Positions 1,495 through 13,728 of a stretch of 64,000 nt of DNA are shown piece after piece. This DNA comes from Myxosarcina sp. GI1 (GTDB lineage: Bacteria; Cyanobacteriota; Cyanobacteriia; Cyanobacteriales; Xenococcaceae). The position numbers were made by a program, and so were the translations under genes. Numbering within the stretch: position 1 is the first letter of the stretch; the number at the start of each line of letters is the position of its first letter. The notes beneath the pieces were generated by a model. The model worked only from the letters and a program-made list of their open reading frames with translations. It made no database searches and had not been told where the DNA came from. Location: positions 37,764 through 101,763 of the forward strand of contig NZ_JRFE01000016.1 in assembly GCF_000756305.1 (NCBI RefSeq), given 5' to 3'.

Positions 1495-4400
1495 ATGACA
1501 AACAAATTTGCTTTATGGCAAAAGCTTAAGTCAACTCGGAATTGTGACATTAAACTTCGCTATGTATCGATTGCTCTACCAATTCTAGTTATTGTTGTAG
1601 CTTGTGTTGTTCTTTTAGGTTGGTATTTAGATCTGCCTGCTTTAAAAAGCATTTTTCTAGGGCGATCGACAATGAAATTTAGTACTGCTTTGTGTTTTAT
1701 TTTAAACAGTACTAGCTTACTATTGTGGCATCGGCAACAATTCGCTCGACTAGATCGGACTAGTAGAGTTTCTAATTTATTAATTTCTGGCTTTCTATAT
1801 CTCGTGCCAACTTTGACAATCGTATTCACCACTATGACTTTAGTTGAATATGGTTTTCAAGTAGATTTAGGCACGAATTTGCTTTCTTTTCTCGATACCT
1901 TGAATGCTGTAGGCGATAACTTTGGTGGGCGAATGTCTCCCAATACAGCTCTAAGTTTTTTCTGGTTTAGTTGGGCAACTATACTACTGATTCAAAAATA
2001 TTATCACGCCGTCCAACTCTTGGCAGTGGCAATTATAGGAGTTGCCCTAACCTCATTGATGGGTCATATTTACGATCTTGCCTGGTTTTATGGTATGAAC
2101 ACTGGAACGGAAATAGCGGTTGTTACTGTCTTTAACTTTCTGTTTCTTGCTTTCGCTCTACTAGGAACTCATGCCGATAAAGCCCTGATGAGAATTATCA
2201 CGCGCAACGAAGCAGGCGGCTTAATGGCGCGGTGGCTACTTCCTTTGGTAACTATTATTCCGCCATTATTGGGCTGGTTTTTTTGGTCAAATTTTTTGGA
2301 TATTGATGTAGTTACAGAAACAAGAATTGCACTGACAACTTTGTTAGAAATATCGATTTTAGATGCAGTAGTTTTGTGGACTGCTAAAAAATTAAACGAG
2401 ATCGATCGCCAGCGTCAATCATTTTTTCAAGACTTGGAAGAAAGCGAACAACAGTTGAGTTTGGCTTTTGATTGCGCTGTAATTGGCAAAGCACTGCTAT
2501 CTATAGAAGGAAAATTTTTAAAAGTTAATCCTGCTCTCTGCGAAATTGTTGGTTACTCAAAGAGAGAATTACTTAATTTAAAATTTCAGGATATTACCTA
2601 TGCTGAAGATTTAGCCAATCTCGAATACAGAAATCGAATGTTAGCTGGTGAAATAAACACACATCAAATAGAAAAACGCTACATTCACAAATTAGGACAT
2701 TTGGTTTGGGTTTCTATTAGTGTATCTTTGGTAAGAGATCGGCAGAATCGAGAGCCTTTATATTTTGTCGCTCAAGTACAAGATACTACGGAGCGCAAAC
2801 AAACAGAAGCAGCTATTCGAGAAAGTGAAGCTAAATATCGTCTTATTGCCGAAAATTCCAATGACCTGATTGCTAGTCTTTCTTCAGACAGAGTTTATTA
2901 CTATGTTTCTCCTGCCTGTCATACTCTGCTAGGCTACACCCAACAAGAAATGCTTGCTCGATGTCTTGATGAGTTTCTTCATCCCGAAGATCTAGAAATT
3001 TATCTTCAAGATGGGGAAGCTTGTGCCATACGCGGAGATCGCTGTACTAATATCTATCGAATGAGACATAAGAATGGACATTACCGCTGGTTTGAAAGCA
3101 CTAATCGTTATTTAAAAGAATCTGATTTAAAATCAATTATCTCCATATCGCGAGATATTACCGAACGCAAAAAAGATGAAGATGCTATTGCTCGACTTAA
3201 TGAAGAACTAGAAGCGCGAGTTAAACAACGTACTGCCGAACTAGAAACTGCTAATCAGTCTTTGAAAGCTGAAATTATTGAGCGTCAAAGAGCCGAACGA
3301 GAAAATCAGCTACTACAAAATATCACTCAGATCGTTGCTACTGCCGACGATTTTGAAGATGCTATTTCTTGTATCCTTCGCAAAATGTGTGATTATGAAA
3401 AGTGGGATTTTGGCGAAGCCTGGCTACCTACTGAGCGAGAGAACGTCTTGCAGCTTTGTTCTGCTTGGTATAGCAATTCTCCAGAACTTTTATCATTTAG
3501 AGAAGCCAGCCTTCATTTTACTTTTGCTCCCAACATTGGTCTTCCAGGTAGAGTCTGGGCGACTAAAGAAGCTGAGTGGATTCATAATGTTTCTCTAGAA
3601 AGCGAAAATTCTTTTCTTAGAACCAAAGTTGCTCAGCAGCTAGGGTTGAAAACCGCTCTGGGTCTACCCGTGGTTTCTCATGACAAATTAATTGCAGTTT
3701 TTGTTTTCTATAGTCATCAAGAATGTTCTAAAAATAACCGCACGATAAAACTACTGAAAGCGACTTGCGCTCAGCTAGGTTTAATTATGGAACGCAAAGT
3801 GTTTGAAAATGCTTTGCGCTCTAGCATGGCAACTAATCGCGCTTTACTAGATGCTATTCCCGATTGGATATTTCGCTTCAGCTACGACAATGCAGTTGTT
3901 AATTACAAAGCTTCTAAAAATACCCCTGTTCCTTTAATTACCGACAATTTTGTTGGTAAAAATATCTATCGAATTTTGCCTCAAAAATATGCAGATTTAA
4001 TGGCACAAAATATATCTGAAGCTTTAGTTAGTAATGAAGTACGGGTTTGTGAATATCAACTATCCAAAGAATCACAAACTATAGATTATGAAGCGCGCAT
4101 CGCGGTAAGCAGTAAAGATGAAGTGATGGCGATCGTGCGAGATATTACTGCGCGTAAAAATTACGAACGAGATATTCACAATGCACTAAAACAAGAAAAA
4201 AAACTCAACGAACTAAAATCTCGCTTTGTCTCTATGACCTCTCATGAATTTCGGACACCACTAACTTCAATGTTATTTTCCTGCGAGCTACTCGAACTTC
4301 ACGGTCATAAGTGGAGTGAAGACAGGAAACTCAATCATCTCAACCGTATTAAAACTTCGATCAAACGTATGACAGAGTTGTTAAATGATGTCCTGCTTTT

Positions 4401-4932
4401 GGAAAAAGCTGATGCGGGTAAATTGGACTTAAAACCCACTCAGTTCGATTTGTATAAATTCTGTAAAGAGTTTGTCGAAGAAATAGAATCAATCTACAAA
4501 ACACATCGAATAATTTTTAACGTGGAGAATTCTACTACTGATAACCAAAACTTTACTGTAAGTATGGACGAAAAACTGCTACAACATATACTTAACAATC
4601 TTCTTTCTAATGCCATTAAGTACTCACCCGATCGCGATGAAGTTTACTTTGACTTGAAATATGAAACAGAACAAGTAGTGTTTCAAGTTCGAGATTTAGG
4701 CATTGGCATTCCGCAAGAAGATCGAAAACATTTATTCGATTCTTTTCATCGAGCGAGTAACGTTAGTTCGATCCCTGGCACTGGATTAGGACTGCCTATA
4801 GTCAAAAGAGCGGTAGATTTGTACGGTGGAACTATCACTATGCAAAGTCAAGTTAGAAAGGGTACAACTTTTACCGTTACCCTCCCATACTTGATTGAAA
4901 ACCCAGTTGATGAAGTTTCTGCAACTACATAA
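1495..4932 (+). CDS. Multi-pass membrane sensor histidine kinase (PAS-PAS-GAF-PAS-HisKA-HATPase)
   Basis: 1145 residues. Residues 22-300 hold about eight hydrophobic segments, a membrane sensor region I cannot name. Then come PAS (about 315-440), PAS (442-565), a coiled coil (565-605, with EARVKQRTAELE), GAF (605-755), PAS (776-887), HisKA with phospho-acceptor His917 in SHEFRTPL, and the HATPase with LNNLLSNAIKYSP, DLGIGIP and GTGLGLPIVKRA. The GAF domain lacks an obvious bilin-binding Cys. It should autophosphorylate on His917 and pass phosphate to the regulator 46 bp downstream, a partnership inferred from adjacency. From the second PAS to the end it is closely similar to the kinase at 5801, so the two are tandem paralogues with different sensors. 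Confidence 0.9.
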   Translation: MTNKFALWQKLKSTRNCDIKLRYVSIALPILVIVVACVVLLGWYLDLPALKSIFLGRSTMKFSTALCFILNSTSLLLWHRQQFARLDRTSRVSNLLISGFLYLVPTLTIVFTTMTLVEYGFQVDLGTNLLSFLDTLNAVGDNFGGRMSPNTALSFFWFSWATILLIQKYYHAVQLLAVAIIGVALTSLMGHIYDLAWFYGMNTGTEIAVVTVFNFLFLAFALLGTHADKALMRIITRNEAGGLMARWLLPLVTIIPPLLGWFFWSNFLDIDVVTETRIALTTLLEISILDAVVLWTAKKLNEIDRQRQSFFQDLEESEQQLSLAFDCAVIGKALLSIEGKFLKVNPALCEIVGYSKRELLNLKFQDITYAEDLANLEYRNRMLAGEINTHQIEKRYIHKLGHLVWVSISVSLVRDRQNREPLYFVAQVQDTTERKQTEAAIRESEAKYRLIAENSNDLIASLSSDRVYYYVSPACHTLLGYTQQEMLARCLDEFLHPEDLEIYLQDGEACAIRGDRCTNIYRMRHKNGHYRWFESTNRYLKESDLKSIISISRDITERKKDEDAIARLNEELEARVKQRTAELETANQSLKAEIIERQRAERENQLLQNITQIVATADDFEDAISCILRKMCDYEKWDFGEAWLPTERENVLQLCSAWYSNSPELLSFREASLHFTFAPNIGLPGRVWATKEAEWIHNVSLESENSFLRTKVAQQLGLKTALGLPVVSHDKLIAVFVFYSHQECSKNNRTIKLLKATCAQLGLIMERKVFENALRSSMATNRALLDAIPDWIFRFSYDNAVVNYKASKNTPVPLITDNFVGKNIYRILPQKYADLMAQNISEALVSNEVRVCEYQLSKESQTIDYEARIAVSSKDEVMAIVRDITARKNYERDIHNALKQEKKLNELKSRFVSMTSHEFRTPLTSMLFSCELLELHGHKWSEDRKLNHLNRIKTSIKRMTELLNDVLLLEKADAGKLDLKPTQFDLYKFCKEFVEEIESIYKTHRIIFNVENSTTDNQNFTVSMDEKLLQHILNNLLSNAIKYSPDRDEVYFDLKYETEQVVFQVRDLGIGIPQEDRKHLFDSFHRASNVSSIPGTGLGLPIVKRAVDLYGGTITMQSQVRKGTTFTVTLPYLIENPVDEVSATT

Positions 4933-4978
4933 GCTGTTGTTTTCAAATACATACAAAAAAAATAAGGAGATTTAAATT

Positions 4979-5650
4979 ATGACCAAACTTTTGGTAATTG
5001 AAGACGAACAATTTGTTAGAGAAGGTATTACAGAACTTTTAGAAGCGGAAGATTACGAAGTCTTTAGTACGGAAAACGGTATTTTAGGCGTTCTTTGGGC
5101 GCAGGAAAATTTACCAGACTTAGTAATTTGCGATGTCATGATGCCTGAAATTGACGGACATGAAGTTTTGTCCGAAATGCGTAACATACCAAGTTTGGCT
5201 TTGACACCATTTATTTTTCTTACTGCCAAGGCTGATAAAACTAGCATGAGACATGGTATGGAATTAGGTGCAGATGATTATCTGACCAAGCCAATTTCTA
5301 GAGACGATTTGATTAACGCTATAGAAACCAGATTGGCAAAACATAAAAAAATACAAGAACAATATGATAAACAGCTTAAGCGTGCCGATGAGTTAGAGCA
5401 AAGAGTCGGCGAAATTGAAAAACTATACATTCAAGAAAAGCTATCGCAAAAATATTACGAAGCAGTGCTCAAGCTAGCTATAGCAATTAACTTGATAGAG
5501 AAAATTCAACCAGGAGAATTGCGCGATCGCAACATAGACATTATTCGTAAAACTTGTGCAAATGAGATTGAGAAGATCGACGACCAACCCAGTTTGCGAA
5601 AAAGTATTATATCTAAAAATCCTGAAATAGCTTTGCAATTGCTAAATTGA
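4979..5650 (+). CDS. Response regulator, REC domain plus helical C-terminal tail
   Basis: 223 residues, preceded by AAGGAGA about 8 bases before ATG. The REC domain covers about 1-125, with acidic Glu8/Asp9, phosphorylation site Asp52 in VICDVMMP, Thr82 and Lys104 in DYLTKP. The remaining 100 residues are a heptad-like helix (about 120-150) followed by a segment with YYEAVLKLAIAINLIEKIQP, and there is no DNA-binding or enzymatic output domain I recognise. It follows the kinase at 1495 and is probably its partner. The regulator at 8832 has the same length and is paralogous throughout, tail included, so the tail is under shared constraint. Its function is unknown. Confidence 0.88.
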   Translation: MTKLLVIEDEQFVREGITELLEAEDYEVFSTENGILGVLWAQENLPDLVICDVMMPEIDGHEVLSEMRNIPSLALTPFIFLTAKADKTSMRHGMELGADDYLTKPISRDDLINAIETRLAKHKKIQEQYDKQLKRADELEQRVGEIEKLYIQEKLSQKYYEAVLKLAIAINLIEKIQPGELRDRNIDIIRKTCANEIEKIDDQPSLRKSIISKNPEIALQLLN

Positions 5651-5800
5651 AAACTGTCAAAACGCCAAATTGTTTGAAACGCCTCCCGCTAATAGTAGAA
5701 GTTAATCTTGATTATTGCATTAACACTTTTTTAGAGCGCAATCAAACTTTTGGTGAAATTTTGGGAACTCTAAATCTAACCCCAAATTGAAATCAAATTA

Positions 5801-8800
5801 ATGTTGACATTCAGCGATAACTGGTTGCTAACTGATTCACTAACAGATTATGTTCTGGGAATTTCCTCTAGCGTGTCTTCTTTCATGCCACATGGTATGT
5901 GTTACCTGTGGAAACCCAGTTTAATTGGACTTTATGTAGTTAGCGATCTGTTAATTGCTATATCTTATTATTCAATTCCCTTTACTTTGATTTATATCGT
6001 TCGCAAACGAAAGGATATTCCTTTCAATGGAATTTTCTTTTTATTTGCCGCTTTTATCATTTTTTGTGGCACTGGTCATGCTTTAGATATTTGGACTCTT
6101 TGGCATCCTAACTATTGGATTTCTGGATGTGTTAGAGCCGCTACAGCTATTGTTTCGGTAATTACAGCGATCGCGCTAATTAGACTAATTCCGCAAATTT
6201 TAACCTTGCCTTCTAATGCACAGATGCGGGTCATTAACCAGAAGCTAGAGCAAACTATTGAGGAATTGAAACAGAAAGATTTAGTTATTTGGGTTAAAGA
6301 AAAATTCTTACAAACTATGCTGGATAATCTTTCTGATGGTATTGCTGCTTGCGACAGTCAAGGTAAGCTAACTATTTTCAATCGAGCCAGTAAAGTTTTT
6401 TTTGGAGAATTAGAAGAAATTCACTCTGATGAATGGTCGAACTACTACGGTTTATATGAGTCAGACGGTAAAACTCTACTCAAACAAGAAAAACTTCCTT
6501 TATTACGTGCCCTCAATGGTGAATCAGTTAGAAACTTCAAATTAGTTACCAAGCAACAATCGAAAAAAAAACGTACTCTACTGGCTAATGGCGATTCTAT
6601 TGTCGATGCCGATGGTGAGAAAATTGGCGCAGTAGTCGCAATGCGAGACATCAGCGAGTTAGAAAAAGTAGCGGAAGCTTTGCGAGAAAATGAAGCTAAG
6701 TATCGCCTGATTGCCGATAACTCTGAGGATTTAATTGCTACTCTCAACGCCGATCGCATTTATCTTTATGTTTCCCCCTCCTGTTACGCACTTTTGGGTT
6801 ACAAACCAAAAGAAATGTTGGGTAAATGCCTCGATGATTTTCTGCATCCCGAAGATCGAGAATTGTTCGCCCGCAGAGAAGAAGTTTGCATAGCCCAGAG
6901 CGATCGCTGCACTAATATCCATCGAATGAGACATAAACATGGACACTATATCTGGTTTGAAAGCATCAATCGTTATTTAAAAAAATCTAATTCAGAATCA
7001 ATTATTTCTGTATCGCGAGACATTACCAAACGCAAACAGACTGAAGATGCTGTTGCTCAACTTAACGAGGAACTTGAAGCCAGAGTCAAACAGCGCACCG
7101 CCGAACTGGAAACTTCTAACCAGTCTTTAAAAGCAGAAATTATCGAACGCCAGCGAATTGAAGAAGAGATTCGGTTACTGCAAAATATTACTCAGTCTAT
7201 TGCAGGGGCTGAGGATTTTGAAGAAGCTATTACACTCACCCTACGACAGGTATGTGAGACTGGCGGTTGGCATTATGCTGAAGCTTGGATTCCCTCGTCG
7301 AATGAAAAAGTTCTAGAACTCAGTTCTGCTTGGTATAGCAGTTCTGTAGAACTTTTGCCCTTTAGAGAAGGTAGCATTCACTTTTCTTTTCCTCCAGGTG
7401 TTGAAGTGTCTGGAAGAGTTTGGGCAAATCAAAAATTTGAGTGGATTCAAAATCTTCCTTCTCAGGACGAAGAATATTTTCCTAGAGTCAAATTAGCAGA
7501 GCAAGTAGGGTTTAAAACTGCTTTAGGAGTACCGATAACTGCCGACCATAAAGTAATTGCAGTTTTTGTATTCTTCGATTTGTATCATCGTTCGGAAAAC
7601 AAAAGAATGGTAGAACTGGTCAAGTCAGTTGCCGCACAGTTGGGTTTGATTATGAAGCGTAAACAAGTTGAAGATGCCTTACGCTCTAGCATGGCAACCA
7701 ATCGCGCTTTACTCGATGCCATTCCCGACTGGATGTTTCGCTTTGGCTACGACGGCACTTTAGTTAATTTTAAAGCTCCCAAAAATACTCACGCTCCTTT
7801 AATTTCCAGCAATTTTATTGGCAAGAAACTCGACGAAGTTTTGCCCCAAGACGTTGCCAAAGTAATGATTAATGGAATCACTGAAGCTTTGACCACCAAA
7901 AAAGTTCAAATTTGCGAATATCAGTTAAATCGAAAAACCAAAACCAAGGATTATGAAGCGCGGATTGCCGTTAGCGATCGCAATGAAGTGATGGCAATCG
8001 TACGAGATATTACCGAACGCAAGCAAATAGAATATAATATTCGCTCCGCTTTAGAAAAAGAAAAACATCTTAACGAACTCAAAACTCGTTTTGTTACCAT
8101 GACCTCTCATGAGTTTCGCACACCACTAGCTTCAATTTTATCTTCCTCCGAATTGCTAGAACATTATGCTCACAAGTGGTCTGAAGAGCGAAAATTAAAC
8201 CATTTGCATCGAATTCAAACCTCGGTCAAACACATGACTGGTTTGTTAAATGATGTCTTGCTGCTTGGTAAAGCTGATGCAGGTAAGTTAGCTCTCAGTC
8301 CTACTGAATTCGATCTGTATCGGTTTTGCCGAGAATATGTTGAAGAAATGCAGCTAATTACTAAAACTCATCAAATTATTTTTAATCGACATGGCTGTTT
8401 TGAAGAGAGCCACGATCGCAGTACAAATCCTGATGACATAACTGGAAATCGAGGTTATACCGTTTGTATGGATGAAAAACTGCTGCGTCATATTCTAAAC
8501 AATTTACTTTCTAATGCTATTAAGTACTCGCCTAATAGCGACAAAGTTTATTTTGATGTGACATGCGAACCCAAACAAGTCGTATTTCAAGTTCGAGACT
8601 TAGGAATAGGTATACCTGTTGAAGACCAAAAACATCTATTCGATTCTTTTCATCGAGCTAGCAATGTTAACTCAATCCCTGGTACGGGTTTGGGATTACC
8701 CATTGTCAAAAGAGCGGTAGATTTGCATGGTGGAACGATTGCTATGAAAAGTAAGATGGGTGACGGTACTACCTTTACAGTTACTCTCCCTAATTTAACT

Positions 8801-8831: not shown

Positions 8832-9503
8832 GTGACTAAAATTTTAGTAATAGAAGACGAATTATTTGTTAGAGAAAACATTACAGAACTGTTAGAAGCA
8901 GAAGATTTTGAAGTTTTCAGTACCGAAAATGGCATTTTGGGAGTGCTATGGGCGCAGGAGAATCTACCAGACTTGGTTATTTGTGACATTATGATGCCTG
9001 AAATTAGCGGACATGACGTTTTGATTGAAATGCGGCAATCACCAAGTTTGGCTCTAACCCCATTTATTTTTCTTACCGCTATGGCAGATAAAGCCGATCA
9101 AAGAGAAGGTATGGAACTGGGAGCGGATGATTATCTAACTAAGCCATTTACCAGAGACGAGTTGCTTGGTGCTATTGAAGTTAGATTAGAAAAACAACAA
9201 AAGCTCTTAGAAAAATACGATAGCGAACATCAGCGTGCGGAAATGTTAGAGCAAAGAGTTCGCGAACTCGAACAACTGCAATTGCAAGAAAGCGTCTCAC
9301 AAGAATATTACGAGGCAGTACTCAAGCTAATTACGGCAATCAATCTTATCGAAAAAATTCAGCCAGGAGAAAGACGCGATCGCAATTTAAATATCGTTCG
9401 TGAAACTTGCGCTCAAGAAATTGGTATGCTCAAAAAGGTACCCAAATTACAACACGAAGTTTTGTCCAAAAATTCTAGTTTGTCATTATTACTACAACAC
9501 TAA
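8832..9503 (+). CDS. Response regulator, REC domain plus helical C-terminal tail (paralogue)
   Basis: 223 residues with a GTG start, 22 bp after the ethylene-receptor-like kinase and preceded by CACGGAGAT. REC domain with Asp52 in VICDIMMP, Thr82 and Lys104 in DYLTKP. The tail matches that of the regulator at 4979 (EYYEAVLKLITAINLIEKIQP, then a helix ending near ETCAQEI). No output domain is recognised, so it may act by protein contact. Close spacing suggests cotranscription with the kinase. Specificity for one kinase or cross-talk between the two pairs cannot be decided from sequence. Confidence 0.88.
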   Translation: MTKILVIEDELFVRENITELLEAEDFEVFSTENGILGVLWAQENLPDLVICDIMMPEISGHDVLIEMRQSPSLALTPFIFLTAMADKADQREGMELGADDYLTKPFTRDELLGAIEVRLEKQQKLLEKYDSEHQRAEMLEQRVRELEQLQLQESVSQEYYEAVLKLITAINLIEKIQPGERRDRNLNIVRETCAQEIGMLKKVPKLQHEVLSKNSSLSLLLQH

Positions 9504-9816: not shown

Positions 9817-10929
<1,113 letters not shown>

Positions 10930-11061
10930 TTACACCCAGATTTTCAATTATCGCGATCGCCTCTGCGTCGCCTTATTTTTCAGAAAAAGTCTACTCTAGA
11001 AGGAAGTTTTAATAGATTGTTTACCTTGCTGCGAGCGACCATAATCAACTTAGCTCGAAAC

Positions 11062-11089
11062 GGCACTATATAGTAACCTAGATAGTGCC
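11062..11089. promoter_or_regulatory. Perfect 8-bp inverted repeat in the frmA upstream gap
   Basis: GGCACTAT (11062-11069) and ATAGTGCC (11082-11089) are separated by 12 bases. They lie in the 355-bp gap between divergent frmA and the DUF2007 gene, which otherwise shows only AT-rich promoter-like DNA. It could be an operator or an RNA hairpin. No T-run follows, so a terminator is unlikely. Confidence 0.35.
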
Positions 11090-11281
11090 AAACTTCCCTC
11101 ATTAGTCTATATAAATCCAAACAAGATTTGTACTTAATTAAGCTGCCAACCTTTATATACTTAAGATCGATTTGAGTTTGGCTTTTTCAAACCCAATAGA
11201 AATTACAATATTACAATAGTTAGATTATCGCCCAAAAAGCGATTTCCTCTGTGGTATGGCTAAATAAAACATCATAAACTC

Positions 11282-11491
11282 GTGTTCTGGACTACATTAA
11301 AAACTACTAAAGCCCGTTGGGAAGCAGAGTTGATGCAGCAAATATTAGCCGCCCACGATATTCCCAGCCGCGTTCTCAATATTGGCGCGGGTATTTATTG
11401 CGGACAGGGAAGCCAGGCAGCACTTCAAGTTTTAGCAAAAGATCGTTGGACGGCTTTACTGTTGCTTAGTTCTCCAGAGGAAAATGAGTAA
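11282..11491 (+). CDS. DUF2007-type small protein
   Basis: 69 residues from a GTG start; the first internal ATG would remove conserved sequence. The pattern ARWEAELMQQILAAHDIPSR followed by a Gly-rich stretch and LQVLAKDRWTALLLL fits DUF2007, small proteins proposed to be signal-transducing because they resemble PII-like folds. No enzyme motif is visible. It lies 24 bp before accD on the same strand, so cotranscription with the carboxyltransferase subunit is likely; whether it affects fatty acid synthesis is unknown. Confidence 0.6.
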   Translation: MFWTTLKTTKARWEAELMQQILAAHDIPSRVLNIGAGIYCGQGSQAALQVLAKDRWTALLLLSSPEENE

Positions 11492-11515
11492 CATCGTAAA
11501 TATAAATTTAAAATT

Positions 11516-12436
11516 ATGTCTTTAATCGACTGGTTTGCCAACCTTAGAAAAACTGAAACTCCAACTCAAAAACGGCAAGAAAGAGAAATAGCTGATGGGT
11601 TATGGATGAAATGCGACGAATGTAGTGCCGTTGCCTATGCCAAAGATTTACAGGTAAATCAACTAGTTTGTTTAGAATGCGGACATCACCATCGCGTCGA
11701 TGCTAACGAACGAATTAAGCAGCTAATCGATCCCGAAACCTGGGATTTTTTAGGAGAAGAAATACTTCCTAACGATCCGCTGAAGTTTCGCGATCGCAAA
11801 GAATATCAGACACGACTCCAAGACTATCAATCTAAAACAGGTCTTAATGACGCGGTTCTAACGGGGACGGGTTCGATAGATGGTTTGCCCGTAGCTCTAG
11901 GAGTTATGGATTTTCGCTTTATGGGCGGTAGCATGGGTTCGGTAGTAGGCGAGAAACTGTGCCGTCTTATCGAACACGCTACCGCAGAACGTTTGCCTGT
12001 AGTTATTGTCTGTGCCTCTGGCGGTGCGAGAATGCAGGAAGGTATGTTGAGTTTAATGCAAATGGCAAAAATTTCGGGGGCTTTACAACGCCATCGCGAA
12101 GCACATTTGCTTTATATTCCAATTTTGACTCATCCTACTACGGGAGGAGTAACTGCCAGCTTTGCCATGTTAGGAGATATTATTATCGCCGAACCCAAAG
12201 CAACTATAGGATTTGCAGGACGCAGGGTTATCGAACAAACCCTCAAAGAAAAGCTACCCGAGGGTTTTCAAACTTCTGAATATCTTCTGCAACATGGCTT
12301 TGTCGATACAATCGTACCTCGTACTCAACTTAAGAAAACTCTGGCACAGCTGGTCGGATTACATCAATCTTTTTATCCTTTAATGTCTCCAGTAAACTAT
12401 CAAAATGGCGTTGCACCAACCAAGACTGAAGTTTAA
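11516..12436 (+). CDS. accD: Acetyl-CoA carboxylase carboxyltransferase subunit beta
   Basis: 306 residues, normal for bacterial AccD. With AccA it transfers the carboxyl group from biotin to acetyl-CoA, the first step of fatty acid synthesis, in the cytosol. The N-terminal zinc ribbon is visible as CDEC (residues 34-37) and CLEC (52-55 region). The crotonase-like core has [33 protein letters not shown] and [14 protein letters not shown], the oxyanion-hole segments. It probably forms an operon with the upstream DUF2007 gene. Confidence 0.97.
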
Positions 12437-12491
12437 AATTACCAAATTAAAGCTAAAAGCCAATCGCTTGAGTTGTTTAAATTTCATCCCG

Positions 12492-12863
12492 ATGCAGGAG
12501 TTTCAACGCTCGTTCATCATTAGTTTGTTAATGGCAATTTTGACTCTCAATTGTCTGGGGGAAAGAGCCATTGCCAAACCTGCTACTGTGTTGAGTAAAA
12601 CTGAAATCTCTCAAAAACTCCAGCAGTTTCCTGGTTGGACTCAAAAAAACAACAAAATAGTCAAAACTTTTGAATTTAAAGACTTTGTGGCGGCAGTCGA
12701 TTTCGTTAACAGACTGGTAGAACCAGCAGAGTTAGCAGGTCATCACCCAGACATTGCGATTAATTACAACAAAGTTACCGTGTCGCTTACGACACATGAT
12801 GCTGGTGGCATTACTAACCAGGACTTTGCTCTAGCTGAAACGATTTCTCAATTAACTAAGTAA
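12492..12863 (+). CDS. 4a-hydroxytetrahydrobiopterin dehydratase (PCD/DCoH) with signal peptide
   Basis: 123 residues from ATG at 12492. A longer start at 12405 overlaps accD by 32 bp, but the shorter form begins with a good signal peptide (MQEFQRSFIISLLMAILTLN, cleavage near AIAKP), so I prefer it. The mature part is a pterin-4a-carbinolamine dehydratase: KLQQFPGW, FEFKDFVAAVDFVNRL, AGHHPDI with the paired catalytic His residues, YNKVTVSLTTHDAGGIT. The family recycles pterin cofactors. Export to the periplasm or thylakoid lumen would be odd for that job, and the signal could instead be a membrane anchor. Confidence 0.82.
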   Translation: MQEFQRSFIISLLMAILTLNCLGERAIAKPATVLSKTEISQKLQQFPGWTQKNNKIVKTFEFKDFVAAVDFVNRLVEPAELAGHHPDIAINYNKVTVSLTTHDAGGITNQDFALAETISQLTK

Positions 12864-12978
12864 CTAGTAGACTAATGCTTAAATAAGCCTATCAGCAATA
12901 AACAAGAGAACAACGTAGAGTTAATAACTTGCTACTTGCTACTTCCGCACAGCGATATTAGTGTATCGACATTTCTGG

Positions 12979-13728
12979 TTAGACTCTTTTAAGTATGCGT
13001 CTAAACCTACCGCCGCTATAGTCGATATAGGCGATTGCTTTATTGAGGGGCATAATCCTAACCCTACCGTCTTGGCTATTTGCCTGATAGACTTTTTTGT
13101 GAGTCATGTCTAAAGCGGTCATCCAACCACTATGATGATGATAAGCTCCAGTTTCAATATCCAACCAGCCAGGACCTGCTGCTATTTGACCTGGTTCGAC
13201 TCCTGGAAGTGTGAAAGTGATAGTGTGACCCGTAATAATTTGTTTGTCTTCAAAAAACGGCTGTTTGTTACCGTGAAATTCATTTCTAATCCAGCAAAAC
13301 TGTGCGGAAGACTGTTCTCCTAAAGGTATCTGAGGATGCACGCCCGCATGAACTAACCAATACTCTCCTAAATCCAGGTAAAGCGGCAAATTTTTCATCC
13401 AGTCAATGTGTTCCTGGGGAATTTTGCTGTTGTAACTGCTAACCGTAGCATGACCGCCGCTATAAAGCCAACTTTGATAGAGATCCATCGAAACTTCTCC
13501 ACTACCGACGACATTAAGCAACATTTCTTCGTGATTACCTCGCAGACATTTATAATTATTAGCAATTGCTAATTCTACTACCTGTGCGCTTTTAGGTCCT
13601 CGATCGATTAAATCGCCCAGAAAGTAAATTTCATCGTCGCTGTTGGGAGAAATTAAGTCTAACAAAGTAATCAAGGTGTCGTAGTGTCCGTGTACGTCAC
13701 CAATTACGATTTGGCGGTGATTGGTCAT
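12979..13728 (-). CDS. Calcineurin-like Ser/Thr protein phosphatase (PPP family)
   Basis: 249 residues. Metal-binding motifs of the PPP superfamily are in order: GDVHGHYDTL near the N-terminus, GDLIDRGPKS, RGNHEEML, then HAGVHP and GHTITF. These coordinate two metal ions for phosphomonoester hydrolysis. Size and motifs match small bacterial PP2A-like phosphatases and ApaH relatives, so the substrate could be phosphoprotein or a dinucleotide. No signal peptide, so cytosolic. It is monocistronic on the minus strand, with divergent miaE upstream. Confidence 0.85.
   Translation of the reverse strand: MTNHRQIVIGDVHGHYDTLITLLDLISPNSDDEIYFLGDLIDRGPKSAQVVELAIANNYKCLRGNHEEMLLNVVGSGEVSMDLYQSWLYSGGHATVSSYNSKIPQEHIDWMKNLPLYLDLGEYWLVHAGVHPQIPLGEQSSAQFCWIRNEFHGNKQPFFEDKQIITGHTITFTLPGVEPGQIAAGPGWLDIETGAYHHHSGWMTALDMTHKKVYQANSQDGRVRIMPLNKAIAYIDYSGGRFRRILKRV

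Follow-up and report, generated by a model that had tools for sequence, protein, structure and literature searches.

The window, a 64,000-nucleotide stretch of DNA from Myxosarcina sp. GI1, contains two histidine kinase genes, each followed by a response regulator gene (order HK1, RR1, HK2, and RR2, separated by 46, 150, and 22 bp; Table 1), and the second kinase begins with a domain of the ethylene-binding type (EBD). Could HK2 be an ethylene receptor, does it carry a light-sensing module as well, and how did such a kinase come to stand beside HK1? An earlier note on this DNA, made from the letters alone, had proposed an ethylene sensor without a light module. Our joint explanation, to which we give a probability of roughly 70%, is that HK2 is an ETR1-type membrane ethylene receptor without a recognizable photosensor, with copper and ethylene binding predicted from its sequence, that relays to RR2 and was born by a swap of front ends.

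Table 1 Features of the HK2 locus (positions in the window) and of the other EBD proteins of the host genome (contigs named).
Feature	Coordinates	Strand	Basis
HK1, paralogous kinase; its front end is hydrophobic, multi-helix, and matches nothing in Pfam	1495..4932	+	Pfam, alignment
RR1, 70% identical to RR2, same tail	4979..5650	+	alignment
HK2, sensor histidine kinase, 1002 aa	5801..8809	+	intact ORF; Pfam ETR1_N, PAS, GAF_2/GAF, HisKA, HATPase_c
PHGMCYLW (residues 30-37), N-terminal segment of the kind typical for bacterial EBDs	5888..5911	+	EBD alignment
EBD, ETR1_N, residues 41-136	5921..6208	+	Pfam, ETR1 alignment, AF2 helices
Codon starts in HK2	D49 5945, Y56 5966, I59 5975, P60 5978, I86 6056, C89 6065, H93 6077	+	
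C89 (6065-6067) and H93 (6077-6079), candidate Cu(I) ligands, predicted membrane helix 2	6065..6079	+	AF2, ETR1 alignment
Mosaic junction near residues 290/291 (place approximate), EBD-kinase-like before, HK1-like after	6668..6673	+	segment identities
GAF domain, residues 471-618, without bilin Cys or DXCF	7211..7654	+	Pfam, alignment
HisKA dimerization/phosphoacceptor domain, residues 761-828	8081..8284	+	Pfam
H770 in HEFRTP, HisKA of HK2	8108-8110	+	sequence
HATPase_c catalytic domain, residues 891-998	8471..8794	+	Pfam
RR2, receiver and ~105-aa tail, GTG start, 22 bp past HK2	8832..9503	+	Pfam, ORF
L036, EBD-GAF-HisKA-HATPase-receiver, 835 aa	G000:C17:118500-131500, 4808-7315	-	Pfam
L035, EBD-PAS-HisKA-HATPase, 547 aa, Asn at the Asp25 place	C19		Pfam, alignment
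L037, EBD-PAS-GGDEF, 679 aa, Ala at the ETR1 Pro36 place	G000:C6:186000-198500, 5260-7299	+	Pfam, alignment

HK2 has the domain order EBD-PAS-PAS-GAF-PAS-HisKA-HATPase_c, assigned with Pfam except for the PAS that precedes residue 290, for which co-linear homology with other EBD kinases was used; the best PAS stretch covers residues 306-413, and PAS_4 matches two separate stretches. HisKA, the HATPase_c motifs, and H770 are all present, giving a histidine kinase core with its phosphoacceptor His. The alignment to the EBD family that the earlier note had proposed as a check gave a Pfam ETR1_N match far beyond chance (E 3.9e-40; score 136.5 bits, cut-off 27). BLAST against Arabidopsis ETR1 (38% identity over 93 columns, with an ETR1 sequence checked at ten numbered residues) paired D49, Y56, I59, P60, I86, C89, and H93 of HK2 with Asp25, Tyr32, Ile35, Pro36, Ile62, Cys65, and His69, which we take to be the seven required residues of ETR1. 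These are the counterparts that the earlier note had listed, and their codons were confirmed. Ethylene binding to ETR1 requires seven residues according to the cited parts of two articles (PMC6682694, PMC11819568). The note had called all of them copper-site residues, a label that proved too wide, since the copper site proper, as given in the cited part of PMC12643061, consists of Asp25, Cys65, and His69.

An AlphaFold2 model of the EBD, built from 61 EBD sequences (the window and 60 of 80 loci; pLDDT 80.9, pTM 0.63), predicted helices at residues 39-69, 76-101, and 105-134. C89 and H93, which would act as ligands as do C65 and H69 of ETR1 (PMC13012798, in part), fall by these limits well inside predicted membrane helix 2, and not outside it, the finding that the note had named as speaking against its reading. 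Because EPR data on ETR1 match the AlphaFold helix packing badly (same review, cited part), we used the model for helix limits only. On ideal helices, D49, Y56, I59, and P60 lie within 100 degrees of each other and I86, C89, and H93 within 60 degrees. A search for relatives of the EBD among solved structures found none (best 1kzu, E 0.36), and a structural fold search gave no match at E 0.001. Among 125 EBD rows from relatives (see below), the column of H31 in the N-terminal motif is His in 105 and that of C34 is Cys in 111. Three positions count against the binding reading: R112 stands at the ETR1 K91 position (R in 17 of the 125 rows, K in 93), H45, common in bacterial EBDs (H in 112/125), is Tyr in HK2, and the second His of the bacterial PHGHC is Met33.

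A set of Cys, His, and Asp is a generic soft-metal site, and by general chemistry Cu(I) takes ligands besides ethylene, so HK2 might instead be a membrane copper or redox sensor whose EBD binds Cu(I) and whose signal is the copper or redox state. We regard this as unlikely, as the equivalents of ETR1 Y32, I35, P36, and I62, beyond the copper site, are all kept in HK2, no copper gene was found among the four ORFs scanned 3′ of RR2 (9817-13728; an alcohol dehydrogenase, a carboxyl transferase, a pterin dehydratase, and a metallophosphoesterase), and ORF 367-954 had no Pfam match. The host genome encodes copper-type P1B ATPases, and since the same family occurs in 14/14 control genomes, their presence says little; a copper supply for HK2 is possible and not specially indicated. 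Two of these ATPase genes reach the same score of 653.9 bits (G000:C57:29250-31049 and G000:C58:60094-61893) and are perhaps a recent duplicate or a repeated contig.

We then compared HK2 with the EBDs of other genomes. ETR1_N is present in 51 of 60 relative genomes, the genome of HK2 counted; in an even sample of 386 genomes across the phylum, 90 have it. The relatives gave 132 matches, of which 125 were taken as 125 distinct rows and seven, at most 57.5 bits, were left out (G053:C321, G027:C101, G051:C25, G040:C3, G053:C112, G028:C31, and G034:C15). One EBD gene, L303 (G055:C183), is broken; its two open parts, 98 and 65 aa long, are both among the 125 rows. All seven ETR1 residues are kept in 70/125 rows and both Cys and His in 107/125, and the pair is absent from 18/125, one of these a fragment. 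The fold can thus outlive its ligand, and relatives seem, judging by these rows, to reuse it with the copper site gone; residue conservation is consequently no proof of ligand binding. ETR1_N domains without the pair include those of L243, L306, L308, L311, L307, and L276, among others.

Such losses, together with those of H45 and the second His of PHGHC in HK2, would also fit a vestigial EBD, a membrane anchor for a cytoplasmic PAS/GAF sensor in which the gas site is kept by recent descent only. We consider this quite improbable, because HK2 keeps all seven residues although its nearest EBD clade varies at the D25 position, and because two paralogues of the host genome have diverged at D25 or P36 and HK2 has not. 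The clade in question is supported (100/99) and holds 16 same-family EBDs, with Asn in 12 and Asp in four at the Asp25 place; over all 125 rows, this place is Asn in 17 and the Pro36 place is Pro in 91. Asp/Asn changes numbered seven on a 123-row tree and five on a 47-row tree (the family rows with both Cys and His plus eight other-family rows, the Asn rows L267 and L284 from other families being left out), and on the latter monophyly of the 12 Asn rows was not rejected (AU p 0.088). Repeated Asp/Asn switching is suggested, and we claim the position as variable only.

Two associations seen in the same rows were dropped. The PHGxC motif and the copper ligands are both present in 100 rows and both absent from 15, with 7 and 3 mixed (Fisher 1.3e-11), and the near-constant PHGxCYLW of bacterial EBDs is mostly absent where the copper ligands are absent; a coupling is not claimed, as the tree holds only 2 supported independent pairs and shared ancestry explains the pattern equally well. 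Likewise, Arg stands at the ETR1 Lys91 place in 9/17 Asn25 rows versus 8/102 Asp25 rows, and the 3 supported independent pairs on the tree decide nothing about an Asp25-Lys91 association.

The bilin signature that we used as criterion for a light-sensing GAF is that of cyanobacteriochromes, and L036, from the same genome as HK2, served as an internal positive control. In the HK2 GAF, Pro561 fills the bilin Cys column of the alignment, no DXCF was found, and the only Cys of the domain, C485, lies far from the chromophore column, bearing out the earlier remark that no bilin Cys is evident. A comparison of this GAF with the PDB returned no GAF, chance matches only. HK2 might still sense both light and ethylene as SynEtr1 does, since it is, like SynEtr1 and GeiEtr2 (PMC6682694, cited part), an EBD kinase of a cyanobacterium that contains PAS and GAF domains, yet this is very improbable given Pro561, the missing DXCF, and a GAF that is 11-16% identical to six bilin-type GAFs from EBD kinases versus 53-55% to those of two FHA kinases. 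HK2 might still hold a chromophore without a covalent bond, or a cofactor in one of its PAS domains, the bilin test being one of motif and alignment.

The bilin-type GAF signature occurs in 15 of the 125 EBD rows from the 51 relative genomes that have ETR1_N, and 110 lack it, of which a few may lack a GAF because 3 of the 125 rows overrun the end of their stretch and 10 have fewer than 400 aa. The 15 comprise five EBD proteins in which a Cys-Phe motif precedes a CH motif by ~30 residues (L224, L255, L261, and L237 with DXCF, L283 with ETCF) and ten, L036 included, of a putative bilin type by motif (CYLxLL, then VPI and LWGLL); they remained from 18 motif contexts after L215, L227, and L289 were dropped on inspection, being stretches of GGDEF or HATPase or, in one case, without the GAF context. 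A first bilin pattern (2/102) had been dropped since it allowed no Leu after CYxx and missed the CYLELL type. The GAF of L036 reads CYLELL...VVPI...LWGLL and is cyanobacteriochrome-like with Cys-Tyr, and L039, L041, L043, and L262 have the same type. At the level of sequence, HK2 is without a photosensor signature, and such absence is the common state among EBD rows. An ethylene sensor without a light module is probably the best reading of HK2, as EBD, helix 2, and GAF suggest, and the contrast with SynEtr1 that had set it apart turned out to be ordinary, 110 of the 125 rows being without the signature.

Among the described receptors, AzoEtr1 of Azospirillum brasilense is an EBD-PAS-kinase for which ethylene binding has been shown (PMC11819568, in the part cited here). 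It shares with HK2 the EBD with seven residues, PAS, and histidine kinase, with no photosensor mentioned in that part of the article, and it adjoins a response regulator without a recognizable output motif, as HK2 does RR2. By Pfam, HK2 is likewise an EBD-PAS-kinase with an adjacent regulator without a known output domain, and an ethylene response is predicted for it. AzoEtr1 has 525 aa and one PAS (same source), against three PAS and a GAF in HK2, which is moreover a mosaic beside its paralogue HK1 and adjoins a regulator with a tail of ~105 aa. GeiEtr1 and GeiEtr2 of Geitlerinema sp. PCC 7105 resemble HK2 as cyanobacterial EBD kinases with all seven residues and one N-terminal Cys; GeiEtr1 is an EBD-GAF-kinase, the bilin state of its GAF not being stated in the cited part, and GeiEtr2 has the HK2-like order EBD-PAS-PAC-GAF-kinase, ending in a receiver of its own where HK2 uses the separate RR2 (PMC6682694).

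SynEtr1 (Slr1212/UirS/PixA, Synechocystis PCC 6803), compared by its description in the same partial source (PMC6682694), also has EBD, GAF, histidine kinase, and a separate response regulator; it is a light and ethylene receptor with a cyanobacteriochrome, unlike HK2 with its GAF without bilin Cys. Its partner Slr1213 activates transcription. RR2 shows a receiver only in Pfam, with a tail that is unassigned there and has a weak model, and it may or may not act in the same way. Arabidopsis ETR1, besides the EBD likeness given above, has a single GAF after the EBD and a fused receiver (PMC12643061, cited part), unlike HK2, and two N-terminal Cys (C4 and C6) versus the bacterial PHGxCYLW segment. 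Bacterial ethylene receptors that have no photosensor and stand next to a regulator without an output domain are already published (AzoEtr1, PMC11819568, in part), as are cyanobacterial EBD-PAS-GAF kinases (GeiEtr2, PMC6682694, in part). HK2 adds one more putative photosensor-free bacterial ethylene sensor, of unusual origin.

This origin was traced by comparing HK2 segment by segment. Residues 27-140 are 71% identical to the EBD kinases L040, L042, L045, and L035 and 27% to HK1, and residues 201-290 are 47-50% identical to L040, L042, and L045 and 31% to HK1. For residues 291-345, identity is 65% to HK1 and 18-27% to the same four EBD kinases, and beyond residue 345 identity to HK1 ranges from 49 to 84% by segment (63.5% from residue 273 on). 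By these identities, HK2 is a mosaic that resembles other EBD kinases over residues 27-290 and HK1 from 291. The earlier note mentions neither this mosaic nor the HK1-RR1-HK2-RR2 order nor the three EBD paralogues elsewhere in the genome. With residues 401-1002 as query, the best non-self EBD match among 227 EBD entries (loci L035-L054 entered twice) scored 286 bits, and nine same-family kinases without an EBD scored 632-712 bits. Eight of the nine have an FHA front end in Pfam (L192, L193, L196, L197, L198, L199, L200, and L203), and the remaining one, L194, lacks FHA and has a shorter ORF of 624 aa; L202, which matches part of the HK2 core, has an FHA front end too. No EBD was found among 159 ORFs at 20 same-family core loci. 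The FHA kinases L192, L196, L197, L198, L199, L200, and L203 (L202 excepted) are 56-59% identical to HK2 over about residues 400-1002 and differ in the front end, an FHA domain and no EBD versus the EBD of HK2. A search of the open-licence literature found no work that brings an ethylene-binding domain together with an FHA domain and a histidine kinase.

On the core tree, HK2 groups with HK1, L204, and L205 of the host genome (support 95/98), and these three share one hydrophobic front end. The simplest account of the order of events, drawn from sequence comparison, would be that an HK1-type kinase and its regulator were duplicated in place and that one copy gained an EBD-PAS front end by a crossover near residue 290. 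The HK1 front end (1495-2430) is a hydrophobic module of ~310 residues without Pfam match that has five copies in the host genome and is N-terminal to histidine kinases in HK1 and L204-L207. HK1 and HK2 form a natural experiment, with a mostly shared cytoplasmic part, closely similar regulators, and different membrane front ends, so that the effect of an EBD on a given kinase is separable by comparing the two neighbors.

RR2 is the probable partner of HK2, and it may also be served by HK1. The tails of RR2 (9186-9500) and RR1 (5333-5647) are each ~105 aa without a Pfam domain; that of RR2 is predicted to be helical by a poor two-sequence model (pLDDT 57.4). Within the host genome, the tail was found in RR1 and RR2 only. 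In a search of 150 genomes of relatives, 42, the host counted, had an RR2-type tail at E 0.001, and eight family members exceeded 80 bits. In six of these eight (G015, G007, G024, G021, G022, and G017), the tailed regulator adjoins a kinase that matches the HK2 core over ~600 residues; in G008, the adjoining kinase matches part of the core, and in G019, the core-matching kinase and the tailed regulator are on different contigs. Most FHA kinases of the genome family of HK2 stand next to a regulator with the RR2 tail, whereas the host C9 kinase L203 has no adjoining tailed regulator. The RR1/RR2 tail is conserved in regulators next to FHA kinases in several relatives.

By analogy with SynEtr1, AzoEtr1, and ETR1, as described in the cited parts of PMC6682694, PMC11819568, and PMC13012798, HK2 could work as follows. 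In an EBD dimer, C89 and H93 would coordinate Cu(I) and D49 would tune the affinity, and ethylene at this site would alter helix packing, a signal that would pass through PAS-PAS-GAF-PAS to the HisKA/HATPase core. Ethylene binding has been shown for the EBD in AzoEtr1 and SynEtr1, and kinase inhibition by ethylene is described for ETR1 and, indirectly, for SynEtr1 (PMC11819568 and PMC6682694, in part). In HK2, ethylene would most likely lower autophosphorylation of H770, so that less phosphate reaches RR2; the tail of RR2 probably works through contacts with proteins rather than with DNA. With an EBD-PAS front end in place of its original one, a duplicated HK1-type kinase would have brought an ethylene input to an existing kinase-regulator pathway.

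A profile search found four EBD proteins in the host genome (HK2 and those on C17, C19, and C6), with the seven residues complete in two, HK2 and L036 on C17. In ETR1, the change of Asp to Asn leaves a working receptor with ~100-fold lower affinity for ethylene, and natural variants exist as tuning between species, according to the cited part of a 2026 review (PMC13012798). Graded sensitivity among the four proteins is hence testable. We tentatively propose, as a possibility that we would not yet favor, that they form an affinity-graded ethylene sensor set with different outputs: HK2 with Asp49 and RR2, the bilin-GAF protein on C17 with Asp, the C19 kinase with Asn and an expected ~100-fold weaker affinity, and the GGDEF protein on C6 with Pro36 changed to Ala. 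In this proposal, the swapped front end of HK2 put a pathway of the FHA-kinase type under ethylene, and Asp and Asn switched within the clade of the HK2 EBD. If bacteria use the affinity switch of ETR1, the Asp/Asn pair of HK2 and C19 would let one genome cover a wide ethylene range. L037 is a possible ethylene-gated diguanylate cyclase. An EBD with all seven residues and an Asn25 EBD keeping Cys and His occur together in 8 of the 51 genomes.
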